Shown here piece by piece: positions 4,622 through 59,982 of a stretch of DNA of 64,000 nucleotides. The stretch is from Pseudoxanthomonas yeongjuensis (lineage in GTDB: Bacteria > Pseudomonadota > Gammaproteobacteria > Xanthomonadales > Xanthomonadaceae). The position numbers and the translations under genes are program-made. The stretch's first letter is position 1. The number at the start of each line of letters is the position of its first letter. The stretch is from the NCBI RefSeq assembly GCF_010093345.1, contig NZ_PDWT01000001.1:186001-250000 (forward strand). The letters are read 5' to 3'. Below the pieces are notes generated by a model. That model was not told the DNA's origin. It worked only from the letters and a program-made list of their open reading frames with translations, and ran no database searches.

Positions 4622-5950
4622 GTGGCAAGACCCCGTCCCCCCCGCATCGACAAGACTCCCTTTGAAGCCGAGATCGTCGACCACAGCCACGACGGTCGTG
4701 GCGTGGCGCGGCGCGACGGCAAGACCGTGTTCATTTCGGGCGCGCTTCCCGGCGAACGGGTCATGGCGGAACAGACCGCCAAGAACCGCCATTTCGACGA
4801 GGCGCGCACGGTCGAGGTGCTGCACGCCTCGCCGGACCGGGTGACGCCGCGCTGCCCGCATTTCGGCACCTGCAGCGGCTGCGTGCTGCAGCACCTGGCC
4901 GAGGACAAGCAGATCCTGCTCAAGCAGCGCGTCCTGCTGGAGAACCTGGAGCGCATCGGCCATGTCACGCCGCAAACGGTGTTGCCGCCGCTGACCGGCG
5001 ACAGCTGGGGTTACCGGCGCAAGGGCCGTTTCTCGGTGCGGCGGGTGAACAAGAAGGACAAGACACTGGTCGGTTTCCGCGAAACCGATCCGCGCTTCGT
5101 CGCCGACCTGCACGTTTGCCACACCGTCATCCCGCACATCGGCGAACGCGTGGAAGCGCTGGCCGACCTGGTCGAAGGCCTGGAGGCGCGCAACGATATC
5201 CCGCAGATCGAATTCATCGCCGGCGATGCAACGGTCGCGTTGGTGTTCCGTCACCTGAGTCCGTTGAGCGACGCTGATCGCGCCGCATTGACGGCCTTCG
5301 CCCGGCAGCACGATTTCGCCATCTACCTGCAGTCCGGTGGCGTGGACACGGTGGTGGCGCTGTGGCCGGAAGCGCCGGAGCTGGCGTTCGCGCTGCCGCA
5401 ATGGAACGTGGAGCTCGTGTTCCGCCCGCTCGACTTCATCCAGGTCAATGCGACGCTGAACCAGAAGATGATCGCGCGTACTTTCGAACTGCTGGATCCG
5501 CAACCCGAGGATCGGATCCTCGACCTGTTCTGCGGGCTGGGCAATTTCACCCTGCCGATGGCAAGGCTAGTCGGCGAAGTGGTGGGCGTGGAAGGCGAGG
5601 CCGGGCTGGTGATGCGCGCACGCGAGAACGCGGGGCGCAACGGCCTGGCCAATGCGCATTTCCATGCTGCCGACCTGACCGAGGATCAACGCGGCACGCC
5701 GTGGATGCGGCAGGGCTTCAACAAGCTGTTGCTGGACCCACCACGTTCGGGCGCCGACGAGGTATTGAAACAATTGCCGCTCAAGAATATCGATCGCATC
5801 GTCTATGTCAGTTGCCATCCGGCCTCGCTGGCCCGCGATGCCGGATTCCTGGTCAATGAGCGTGGTTACAAGCTGAAGGCGGCGGGAGTGATGGACATGT
5901 TCCCGCATACGGGGCATGTGGAAAGCATTGCGTTGTTCGAGATGAAGTAA
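4622..5950 (+). CDS. rlmD: 23S rRNA (uracil-1939-C5) methyltransferase RlmD
   Basis: 442 residues, GTG start. Order: N-terminal TRAM domain (about 10-65); the four-cysteine [4Fe-4S] cluster region with CPHFGTCSGC (about 80-89) and a fourth Cys near 162; and a C-terminal SAM-dependent methyltransferase with LFCGLGNFTLP (SAM site) and the VSCHPAS nucleophile motif. RlmD methylates U1939 of 23S rRNA using S-adenosylmethionine. Length matches the family. It stands alone, with 135 bp before the next gene. Confidence 0.95.
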   Translation: MARPRPPRIDKTPFEAEIVDHSHDGRGVARRDGKTVFISGALPGERVMAEQTAKNRHFDEARTVEVLHASPDRVTPRCPHFGTCSGCVLQHLAEDKQILLKQRVLLENLERIGHVTPQTVLPPLTGDSWGYRRKGRFSVRRVNKKDKTLVGFRETDPRFVADLHVCHTVIPHIGERVEALADLVEGLEARNDIPQIEFIAGDATVALVFRHLSPLSDADRAALTAFARQHDFAIYLQSGGVDTVVALWPEAPELAFALPQWNVELVFRPLDFIQVNATLNQKMIARTFELLDPQPEDRILDLFCGLGNFTLPMARLVGEVVGVEGEAGLVMRARENAGRNGLANAHFHAADLTEDQRGTPWMRQGFNKLLLDPPRSGADEVLKQLPLKNIDRIVYVSCHPASLARDAGFLVNERGYKLKAAGVMDMFPHTGHVESIALFEMK

Positions 5951-12509: not shown

Positions 12510-12650
12510 TCCCTTCTCCCTCCGGGAGAAGTTGGCGCGAAGCGCCGGATGAGGGAGGAAGAATTCCCCCCGTACCGAACTTTCATCGCGATCTGACAAT
12601 GCATTCCCTCATCCGCCCTTCGGGCACCTTCTCCCGGAGGGAGAAGGGAA
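12510..12650. mobile_element. 'empty' CCCTTCTCCC inverted-repeat element (no cargo)
   Basis: Left arm 12510-12556 starts TCCCTTCTCCCTCCGGGAG and ends GGATGAGGGA; right arm 12605-12649 is the reverse complement with few mismatches (TCCCTCATCC...GGGAGAAGGGA). Only about 48 bp separate them and contain no ORF. The same pair of arms flanks a nuclease gene at 59.18-59.69 kb, so this looks like a cargo-free or deleted form of that element. It sits 1 bp after the aidB stop codon. Confidence 0.7.
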
Positions 12651-57718: not shown

Positions 57719-59982
57719 AGTGGCAGTGGGCTTCCCGGCAGCCAGCCCGCGGCATCCATGCGGTCCAGCAGCGTCGTGACCTGTTCGCGCGCGTCCATTT
57801 CGTGGATCGGCAGCACCAGCAGGTCGCCATCGCGTGCCCAGGCCAGGGGAATGCGCGCGGCCTCGACTTCGTCCAGGCAGGTGATGATGGCTTCCGGTCG
57901 TATTCCGTCCTCCAGCAATCGCGCGTGCATGACGGCCGCGACCTCGCCCGAAGCGCGGCCGCGCTCGTAGCCGGCGATGTTCTTCAGCATGACCAGGTCG
58001 GGGCGGGCGCCGGCTGCGGTCGCAGCCACCGCCCGCAGGTCGGCGTCTTCGCGATTGCCGGCGTGGCCCAGGATCAGGGCCAGGCGGCCTTTCCTTCCTT
58101 GCGCGTCCACTGCCTCGAACAGGCCCTGCAGGCCATCGGGGTTGTGGGCGTAATCGACGAATACGTCCGTCGTCCCGAACCGCCAGTGCTGCAGGCGTCC
58201 GGGGTTGTCGGCCCGCGAGCGCCCGAAACCGGCGGCTACCGCGGCGAGCGTGGCAGGAGCTATGCCCAGCGCCGCGCCGGTCAGTGCGGCGCCGGCCAGG
58301 TTGGCGATGTTGTAGGCCGCCCGGCCGCCCAATGTCAGCGGCATCGCCGCGACTTCGCCCAGGTCGTGGGTAATGCCGTGGAAATGCAGCAACAGGCGTC
58401 CGTCGCGAACGCCGCAGGTGGAGCCGCTCCGTCGACGATGCTCGGCCAGTGCGGGTAGGTCGAAATCCAGCGCGAACCAACCCAGCGGGCAGGACAGGAC
58501 CTTCGACTGACGGACGAGGACCGGGTCGTCGGCATTGAGCACCAGCATTCCCCGGTCATCGATGGCGCGGGCCACGACCAGCTTCACCGAGGCGAGGTCA
58601 TCGAGGTCGTGGATGCCGTATTCGCCGAAATGGTCGGCGGCGATATTGGTGACGATGGCGGCATCGGCGTGCGCGACCGCCAGGCCGCGGCGGAGCATGC
58701 CGCCGCGCGCGGTTTCCAGGATCGCGGCCTGCGCCTCGCCCTGGCGCAACGCGGTGCGGGCGCCGGTGGGGCCGGAGAAATCGCCGGCCTCCAGCGCCTT
58801 GCCATCGAAATACACGCCATCGGTGCAGCTGTGCGCGGTGCGCCAGCCATGCGCCCGGGTCATCGCCGCCAGCAGGCGCACGGTGGTGGTCTTGCCGTTG
58901 GAGCCGGTGATCAGTGCGGTGGGGATCGCGTGCAGCTCACCCCACGGCACGGTGTCGGGCGACGGCAATTCGTCGACGAACCAGCTGCGGCTGCCGTTGC
59001 CTTCGCCGAGGGTCGCTTCGTCGTCGTCGGCGAGGAAGGGCAGGTGGTGGGCTTCGGCGGCCTGCATGAGCTCGATCAGTCCTGGCCGTGCTTCCGCTTT
59101 TGCTGCCGCGCGCAGGGTGTGCAGCGCGGATTCCTCATCCCAGACCGCAGCGTGGCCAGGTGAGTGGTATGGCTCTGGCATTTCCCTTCTCCCACCGGGA
59201 GAAGGTGCCCGAAGGGCGGATGAGGGAATGGACCTTCCGGTAACCGTATCGCTGGCTACCCGCGCATGCACTTGCTCCCATAGGTCTGCCAGAACGTATT
59301 CAGTCCGTTCGAGTACATCGTGATTCCAGTACCGCAGCGTCGTGATGCCCTTGCCTGCGACAAAAGCATCACGCCGACTATCGGGAGTCAGATGTTCATC
59401 TTCATTGTGCTGTCCACCATCCAGCTCGATCGCGAGTTTCAATTCGTGGCAGTAGAAATCGAGTACGTAAGGGCCAAGCGACTTCTGACGCCTGAATTTC
59501 TGATCATGCAAGCGACGGTCGCGCACATACGACCAGACGAGTTGCTCGGCATCGGTCGAGTTCTTCCTCAATTCACGTATGAAATCCAGCGATTTCTGGT
59601 CGAAGGGAAGTTTCTGGCGGGGGCTTGCATCGCCACTGATGGGTTCTTCCCTCATCCGGCCTTCGGCCACCTTCTCCCGGGGGGAGAAGGGAAAAGCAAC
59701 AGCCGACCACCACGCCCACTCATTGACCTCGGTGGCGGTGTAGAGCTGGTCGACGGGCGCGATGAAGGCGAGCGAGACGCCAGTGCGGTGGTGGCGGAGG
59801 ACGATCTTTTCCTCCGGCCAGCCGAGCGCCATGCGTGCCGTCCCGATGTTCCTCTTCCACGCCGCGAGCATGGCCTCATCGAACGCCAGTCCACGCGCCG
59901 CCTCCAGCGCCGCGCCGGCGCCGTTGAAATACAGGTTGCTGCCGGTCAGGCGGCGCGAGTCTTCGAACGGTTCGGGAAGCAC
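57715..59982 (-). CDS. CphA-like Mur ligase with in-frame DUF559 nuclease insertion
   Basis: 755 residues, GTG start 7 bp after cphA. Residues 1-96 and about 268-755 form one protein: an N-terminal region and a Mur ligase central/C-terminal module with the P-loop ITGSNGKTTT (about 357-366), LETARGG and VDYAHNPDGL. This module is closely like that of CphA, but the ATP-grasp part is absent. Residues about 97-267 are foreign: they hold a DUF559 endonuclease-like domain (about 126-240, SLDFIRELRKNSTDAE...YVLDFYCHELKLAIELDGGQH) between translated inverted repeats. The frame stays open throughout, so a fusion protein could be made, but folding and activity of either part are uncertain. Confidence 0.85.
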   Translation of the reverse strand: MLPEPFEDSRRLTGSNLYFNGAGAALEAARGLAFDEAMLAAWKRNIGTARMALGWPEEKIVLRHHRTGVSLAFIAPVDQLYTATEVNEWAWWSAVAFPFSPREKVAEGRMREEPISGDASPRQKLPFDQKSLDFIRELRKNSTDAEQLVWSYVRDRRLHDQKFRRQKSLGPYVLDFYCHELKLAIELDGGQHNEDEHLTPDSRRDAFVAGKGITTLRYWNHDVLERTEYVLADLWEQVHARVASDTVTGRSIPSSALRAPSPGGRREMPEPYHSPGHAAVWDEESALHTLRAAAKAEARPGLIELMQAAEAHHLPFLADDDEATLGEGNGSRSWFVDELPSPDTVPWGELHAIPTALITGSNGKTTTVRLLAAMTRAHGWRTAHSCTDGVYFDGKALEAGDFSGPTGARTALRQGEAQAAILETARGGMLRRGLAVAHADAAIVTNIAADHFGEYGIHDLDDLASVKLVVARAIDDRGMLVLNADDPVLVRQSKVLSCPLGWFALDFDLPALAEHRRRSGSTCGVRDGRLLLHFHGITHDLGEVAAMPLTLGGRAAYNIANLAGAALTGAALGIAPATLAAVAAGFGRSRADNPGRLQHWRFGTTDVFVDYAHNPDGLQGLFEAVDAQGRKGRLALILGHAGNREDADLRAVAATAAGARPDLVMLKNIAGYERGRASGEVAAVMHARLLEDGIRPEAIITCLDEVEAARIPLAWARDGDLLVLPIHEMDAREQVTTLLDRMDAAGWLPGSPLPL
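59181..59694 (-). mobile_element. inverted-repeat element carrying a DUF559 nuclease
   Basis: Left end TCCCTTCTCCCACCGGGAG...GGATGAGGGA (59182-59226) and right end TCCCTCATCC...GGGAGAAGGGA (59649-59693) are imperfect inverted copies of about 45 bp. They enclose a 420-bp segment encoding a DUF559 domain; its own natural ATG (59655) lies inside the right-hand repeat. The same repeats without cargo occur at 12510-12650. No clear target duplication was seen. Confidence 0.75.

Follow-up and report, generated by a model that had tools for sequence, protein, structure and literature searches.

The DUF559 nucleases and the intrastrand triplex motifs (TMs, earlier called PITs) that flank their genes are probably the two halves of one REP-like system, working in the manner of RAYTs and REPINs. 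The genes lie between inverted arms whose tracts follow a mirror rule, and the association is specific to DUF559 genes among the gene families compared. The genome-wide copy number of the repeats is linked to the presence of DUF559, short doublets of the arms are present or absent at orthologous sites, and the nuclease genes themselves are inherited vertically.

The window, i.e., the whole stretch of DNA analysed, comprises 64,000 nucleotides (C11:186001-250000) of the 3.94-Mb genome of Pseudoxanthomonas yeongjuensis (G000). Its Mur-ligase ORF (Table 1) matches Mur_ligase_M and Mur_ligase_C in the Pfam scan and additionally PF04480 (DUF559), the latter with an E-value of 3.8e-30 and 104.4 bits, the cut-off being 20.6. 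The insertion occupies the linker following residue ~97 of the Mur ligase. The reading frame is free of stop codons across both arms and the nuclease, which has no stop codon of its own and retains the conserved E, D and E-x-D-G-x-Q-H positions. A preliminary description of this DNA had noted a DUF559 nuclease lying in frame within a CphA-like Mur ligase and bounded by inverted repeats, and this observation is confirmed. The core ends of the 514-bp unit read TTTCCCTTCTCCC...GGGAGAAGGGAAA, and its imperfect inverted ends, previously given as about 45 bp, belong to arms of 58 nt that are 90% complementary and lie 418 nt apart. Each arm consists of a 9-bp hairpin (CCTTCTCCC/GGGAGAAGG) and an inner 4-bp hairpin, followed by GGATGAGGG; as plain single strands the arms fold only somewhat better than their shuffles (z of -1.9 and -1.7). 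The start codon of the nuclease had also been placed inside one repeat end, where an in-frame ATG is indeed found: it lies in the upstream arm's third tract, and separate translation of the nuclease may begin there. The unit shows no intron, intein or methyltransferase partner, and PF01797 (HUH-Y1 transposase) is not among the Pfam matches of the ORF, which are to DUF559 and Mur-ligase domains only.

Table 1. Features of the inserted unit and of a related repeat pair, in window coordinates
Feature	Position	Strand	Basis
CphA-like Mur ligase ORF, 755 aa	57715..59982	-	ORF list and Pfam scan; uninterrupted homologues
Complete inserted unit, arm-DUF559-arm, in frame	59181..59694	-	Linker of 531 nt vs 21 nt in 7 empty congeners
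Upstream arm (gene orientation): CCTTCTCCC-loop-GGGAGAAGG, inner hairpin, GGATGAGGG; third tract gene-facing	59647..59704	-	
Downstream arm, inverted copy of the upstream-arm motif; third tract gene-facing	59171..59228	+	
DUF559 (PF04480) nuclease domain, Vsr/homing-endonuclease fold	59272..59589	-	Pfam, alignment and fold search
In-frame ATG within the third tract (GGATGAGGG) of the upstream arm	59653..59655	-	Read from the sequence
Another copy of the unit's repeat pair, without nuclease	12512..12650	.	C11:198512-198650

The Mur-ligase comparison covered 30 homologous loci, the window's own included, taken from 61 genomes. Most of these homologues are without the segment: four loci hold a full unit (531-588 nt), three have a linker of 48-51 nt and 23 a shorter one. 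In seven empty congeners the linker measures 21 nt, and the resulting length difference of 510 nt compared to the 514-nt unit places the limits of the insertion at the repeat ends within a few nucleotides. Alignment with uninterrupted homologues, which had been suggested for locating the junction and any target duplication, places the former by length alone; no target duplication was identified at the Mur site, where the empty homologues are too diverged to resolve one. The nuclease is found in frame at the same Mur site in three further genera (G023, G040 and G025), the arms of G040 no longer matching (score 24), and the site is filled in seven genomes of four genera, i.e., the window and six others. 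Of the three loci with a linker of 48-51 nt, G148 shows a plain arm, G149 a decayed one and G121 a doubtful one. On the Mur tree, full and empty alleles are interspersed; 3 of the 7 full rows were found via DUF559, so that 7/33 is not a prevalence. Because the one-arm G148 is sister to the full G141 (support 100/99), the nuclease was probably lost in G148, whose allele, read by eye against that of G141, resembles an imprecise deletion and not a clean excision. The nuclease and the Mur ligase co-diverge (r = 0.93, 21 pairs), and dN/dS is 0.05-0.30 in the nine computable pairs, all with dS >1, dS being saturated in the other 12. The history of the site is either one of an old insertion followed by losses or one of repeated insertion at the same place.

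Across the host's bacterial family, DUF559 matches are present in 69 of 119 genomes (146 matches overall). From these, 112 regions were taken (113 matches, one region holding two adjacent genes), the matches left out being mostly weak, partial or at contig ends; six regions cut by a contig end were dropped, leaving 106 with both flanks. Further loci left out were 1/28 in the phylum sample, 3/30 RAYT, 1/30 GIY-YIG and 1/80 contig loci. The phylum, RAYT, GIY-YIG and YjbR samples consist of the best-scoring loci, at most 30 each, and the contigs from many phyla, which come from named genomes, were the best 80 of 562 found with a protein query blind to the flanks. With inverted arms defined by an inverted-repeat score of at least 32, such arms straddle 77 of the 106 family genes, the scores being bimodal (>=33 or <=28), as well as 16/27 genes among the best-scoring loci of the phylum sample and 55/79 loci from many phyla (from the best 80 of 562). 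The search for repeat-flanked DUF559 genes proposed in the preliminary description therefore shows this to be the usual state, more general than had been supposed. Counted by locus, inverted arms enclose one or more members at 19 of the 26 family loci; 29/106 family genes are without matched inverted arms, and in the largest common family locus they are absent in 16/26 genomes. One locus (L184 of G367) holds its DUF559 gene within unusually long and near-identical inverted repeats (score 197), possibly a recent event.

Since the loci share a motif, pairings across loci are unclean as a null, and slid same-locus controls and other genes were used instead. Slid controls reach a score of 32 in 1/429 cases for the many-phyla loci, in 0/60 for the first 30 family loci and in 2/54 for the phylum sample. 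RAYT genes, taken as a positive control, have inverted flanks in 18/27 cases (slid 5/54). GIY-YIG genes failed as a negative control, with inverted flanks of other repeat classes in 12/29 (slid 3/58), and lone YjbR genes were consequently used, of which 0/30 have inverted arms.

The arms are built like the intrastrand triplex motif (Holder 2015, PMC4666352): in the variants seen, a pyrimidine tract, a loop and a purine tract are followed by a spacer and a second purine tract. An inner hairpin fills the second loop, which is 3 nt in Holder's pattern, so that the likeness is one of architecture and not an exact pattern match. The second purine tract mirrors the purine strand of the hairpin (G over G, A or T over A), perfectly so in 100/129 family arms and with a score of 1.00 in both window arms. 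The mean mirror score is 0.946, compared to 0.862 for unmirrored tracts and 0.795 across types, and none of 300 permutations exceeds 0.854; the permutation is no formal test, since orthologous loci do not provide independent arms. The mirror rule means that stem and third tract change together between variants, and GGGAGAAGG indeed occurs with GGATGAGGG and GGGGGAAGG with GGATGGGGG. The third tract faces the gene in the upstream arm in 73/76 family, 16/18 phylum and 52/63 contig cases, and in the downstream arm in 60/76, 10/20 and 29/58 cases, respectively, the gene end of contig loci being mostly set to one typical value in this analysis of TM position.

Under the detection rule used here, TMs are found no further than 250 bp from 96/106 family, 26/27 phylum and 73/79 many-phyla DUF559 genes, compared with 1/27 RAYT, 0/29 GIY-YIG and 0/30 YjbR genes; within 400 bp the GIY-YIG count is 1/29. 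GTAG repeats within 400 bp accompany 10/27 RAYT, 3/106 DUF559, 3/29 GIY-YIG and 2/30 YjbR genes. The lone GIY-YIG genes (L236-L265, e.g., L244, L246, L257 and L263) have, within 400 bp, CGTC repeats in 8/29 cases, on both sides in six, and TTCGnnnTGAG repeats in 5/29, on both sides in four. The CGTC pattern was found within 400 bp of none of the DUF559, RAYT and YjbR genes, and these repeats have been described as apparently without a dedicated transposase (Di Nocera et al. 2013, PMC3733652). On the DUF559 tree the repeat types cluster strongly (16 changes vs 38.9 when shuffled, 0/200 as low). Among the pairs that remain after removal of those with homologous flanks, 23/77 are of the same type compared to 21.2 expected, a count that masking of the repeats left unchanged; the clustering thus vanishes, and co-specificity of nuclease and repeat type is not claimed.

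The nuclease genes stay put. The 106 family genes occupy 26 loci, two of which are common to 26 and 22 genomes, and DUF559 genes at least 70% identical have homologous flanks in 32/35 pairs. These shared flanks, the 26 loci and the co-divergence with the Mur ligase rule out a hopping unit, so that the bounded segment, earlier taken for a possible mobile unit, does not appear to be one at present. Nor does it qualify as an autonomous transposon or insertion sequence, given the shared flanks of close pairs and a target duplication that was not identified. Phages and plasmids are equally poor candidates as vehicles, DUF559 being present in 2 of 50,697 phage records and 44 of 72,556 plasmid records; two plasmid records examined among the 20 matches listed are chromosome-sized. 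These two (L376 and L377), 4.8-4.9-Mb E. coli records filed as plasmids and containing the sap-ycjD-fabI region, look like chromosomes.

Two exact repeat patterns (A and B) were counted in the 119 family genomes, the reversed-pattern control giving 0 in the rows listed. Their median copy number is 25 in genomes with DUF559 and 0 in genomes without it, and at least five copies are found in 57/69 of the former and 5/50 of the latter (Fisher 7e-16, uncorrected for genome relatedness); the remaining 12/69 DUF559-bearing genomes have fewer than five. Among 11 genera in which both states occur, the count is higher with DUF559 in nine, lower in one and tied in one (p = 0.021). Within the DUF559-bearing genomes, copies of pattern B follow B-type flanks of the nuclease (p = 1.7e-5), and copies of pattern A do not follow flanks of their own type (p = 0.40).

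The genome of P. yeongjuensis contains 36 exact palindromes (reversed-pattern control 0), and 20 stretches that were read contain nine inverted doublets, eight spaced 111-114 bp and one 142 bp; it thus harbours a REPIN-like population of many inverted doublets with near-constant spacing. In the repeat pair that lies in the window without a nuclease (Table 1), one palindrome is exact (C11:198627-198647) and its partner diverged. In sequence the doublets are similar to subterminal bases of the DUF559 unit, a similarity equalled by 1 and 5 of 2,000 random 20-mers. Two doublet sites were compared between relatives, and at both the varying part is the short arm doublet and not the gene. Doublet L022, read in 10 relatives, is present in G117; its site holds only 12-22 bp in G091, G133, G119, G137 and G138 and ~96-250 bp of other sequence in G135, G126, G136 and G016, with GTAG-type repeats in three of these. 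At the site of doublet L027, read in six relatives, G117 has 18 bp (flanks 89% and 81% identical), and the remaining five have other, longer sequence, with a TM-like hairpin in G120; the difference at L027 is either a gain or a loss. The same genome also encodes a second DUF559 gene (L001:1411-2272) with a different TM variant, whose downstream repeat unit recurs ~225 bp further along. It also has 11 RAYT-like (Y1_Tnp) matches, so that several REP-like systems may coexist in it.

An AlphaFold2 model of the DUF559 protein (56 sequences, pLDDT 85) finds its best fold match in the gonococcal endonuclease-like protein 3hrl (E 5e-8), and its second-best solved fold in the catalytic domain of the homing endonuclease I-Bth0305I (3r3p, E 7e-4). 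The match to Vsr is weak (E 0.13), and mitoribosomal proteins rank between I-Bth0305I and Vsr. A search of the PDB with the A1 profile likewise retrieves 3hrl (5.9e-42); the toxin B chains that it also returned, with E >0.3, are chance matches. A 2005 paper counted YcjD among the PD-(D/E)XK proteins, and the YcjD profile detects Vsr (PMC1189080). In Caulobacter, SOS induction upon loss of a cytosine methyltransferase requires the DUF559 protein VsrA, which makes nuclease activity in vivo plausible, and the experiments link VsrA to that methyltransferase and not to repeats (PMC12907096).

In E. coli K-12, ycjD (b1289, 1351407-1351760) bears the annotation of a DUF559 gene. TMECO no. 9 of Table 1 of Holder 2015 (PMC4666352), at 1351204-1351239, lies 168 bp downstream of it, and a decayed inverted TM partner (25 nt, 80%) overlaps the 3' end of the gene. 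The repeats around ycjD (L378:5217-5420 and 5758-5802) thus comprise this decayed inverted TM pair downstream and, on the upstream side, a perfect 17-bp palindrome of another kind, TCACCTCATTCTGACAA, which may be a replacement for a lost upstream arm of ycjD. A sapD-sapF-ycjD-fabI query is covered to at least 80% at one place in 3,362 of 5,426 E. coli genomes; the other 2,064 do not necessarily all lack ycjD, and in the two non-carrier genomes examined efflux genes follow sapF. The E. coli TMs are intergenic, mark variable loci and include five inverted A/B pairs; remnants of transposases or integrases were never found around them, and triplex formation was shown in vitro, a stable triplex in vivo being unsupported (Holder 2015, PMC4666352). 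The terms 'endonuclease', 'DUF', 'Vsr' and 'ycjD' are absent from the main text of that paper.

The combination of a stationary, vertically inherited gene and flanking inverted palindromic repeats is shared with REP/REPIN-RAYT systems (for the RAYT side, in part, PMC3733652), as are the many short, dispersed inverted doublets with near-constant spacing. The two differ in the enzyme, which is a HUH-tyrosine protein in RAYTs and a PD-(D/E)XK protein with a Vsr-like fold in DUF559, and in the repeats, which are of the pyrimidine-purine triplex type here and lack the GTAG tag of RAYT REPs; of the RAYTs of the family sample, 10/27 are found near GTAG repeats and 1/27 near a TM. The unit is not a REPtron either, its ORF containing no HUH-Y1 gene and GTAG repeats being near so few DUF559 genes. 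With the TM/PIT family it shares the hairpin and the third purine tract, and TM no. 9 of K-12 adjoins ycjD; these repeats were described as orphans with no mobility gene nearby (PMC4666352), whereas here they are associated with DUF559. Vsr, I-Bth0305I and the DUF559 relative 3hrl are alike in fold, and, unlike Vsr and I-Bth0305I, DUF559 here stands as a single gene between TM repeats; the likeness to homing endonuclease genes is one of fold similarity alone. Repeats are also the subject of PMC10888264 and PMC12306157. In the open literature, 14 papers name DUF559, 4 name COG2852 and 2 mention ycjD together with the word 'repeat'. Among the matches listed in searches of that literature, titles and abstract openings contain no link of DUF559, COG2852 or ycjD to REP or TM repeats; a prior description is possible.

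We infer that DUF559 proteins bind and cut TMs and thereby drive the dispersal of doublets. In the mechanism that we propose, a stationary and vertically inherited nuclease gene would sit between two inverted copies of its own repeat, and the recognition target would be the TM, a pyrimidine-purine hairpin onto which a third purine tract would fold to give an intrastrand triplex on exposure of one strand. The Vsr/homing-type PD-(D/E)XK enzyme would nick or cut at the TMs, which would allow short inverted TM doublets, either copied or excised, to be inserted at other places, mostly intergenic ones. The doublets would spread as by-products, in the way proposed for RAYTs and REPINs, and the window would hold one nuclease-bearing unit that lodged long ago in a tolerant Mur-ligase linker and was kept in frame. 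Speaking against this reading, cleavage and movement are deduced from sequence patterns and fine co-specificity is unsupported (23/77 vs 21.2). In addition, five of 50 genomes without DUF559 have at least five copies and one genus behaves in the opposite way, and the third tract of the downstream arm is gene-facing in only half of the cases outside the family. The DUF559-bearing genomes with fewer than five copies, the lack of a match between pattern A copies and their own flank type, the family genes without matched arms and the experimental link of Caulobacter VsrA to a methyltransferase also weigh against it.

An unlikely alternative is that DUF559 is a Vsr-like nuclease of repair or genome maintenance, that the arms serve its own gene in cis (as a start-site hairpin, a terminator or a means of autoregulation) and that TMs elsewhere are protected or repaired and not mobilised. 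The YcjD-Vsr profile match (2005, PMC1189080), the weak Vsr fold match and the repair-like behaviour of Caulobacter VsrA (PMC12907096) are all consistent with it, as are the stationary, vertical inheritance of the genes and the ATG in the window arm. It leaves unexplained why many copies are dispersed in the host genome, often as inverted doublets, why copies occur mainly in DUF559-bearing genomes and why doublets are present or absent at two orthologous sites. We consider it less probable still that the unit is a selfish homing-type element that cuts sites without it and is copied in by break repair, the doublets being deletion derivatives and the Mur unit a homed copy. The occupation of the same Mur site in four genera, the scattered full and empty alleles and the fold of I-Bth0305I would fit such an element, but the co-divergence with the host gene, the 26 different loci, unless these have a target in common, and the near absence from phages do not. 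That TMs merely accumulate beside dispensable genes, DUF559 genes being neighbours without a functional tie, would agree with the intergenic position of E. coli TMs at variable loci (Holder 2015, PMC4666352). This explanation is strongly disfavoured, and in our judgement very improbable, because the RAYT, GIY-YIG and YjbR genes have TMs nearby in one case at most, the arms are inverted and matched, and the genome-wide copy number tracks DUF559.

If the RAYT-like reading holds, the DUF559 nucleases would be candidate missing partners of the orphan TM/PIT repeat family, present even in E. coli K-12. A broader proposition, to which we give an even chance, is that unrelated small nucleases each serve their own REP-like repeats: HUH-Y1 RAYTs the GTAG repeats, DUF559 the triplex motifs and lone GIY-YIG proteins the CGTC repeats, with DUF559, which in K-12 is YcjD, recognising a folded triple-stranded DNA end. 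The pairing of HUH-Y1 RAYTs with GTAG repeats is already known; to our knowledge, a folded triple-stranded DNA end would be a new class of substrate for any transposition system. The results suggest that designs of the RAYT-REPIN type have evolved around different nuclease folds and that DNA able to form triplexes is perhaps a genuine recognition signal. Most of the widespread DUF559 proteins are without an explanation, and their link to TMs makes both testable in E. coli K-12.
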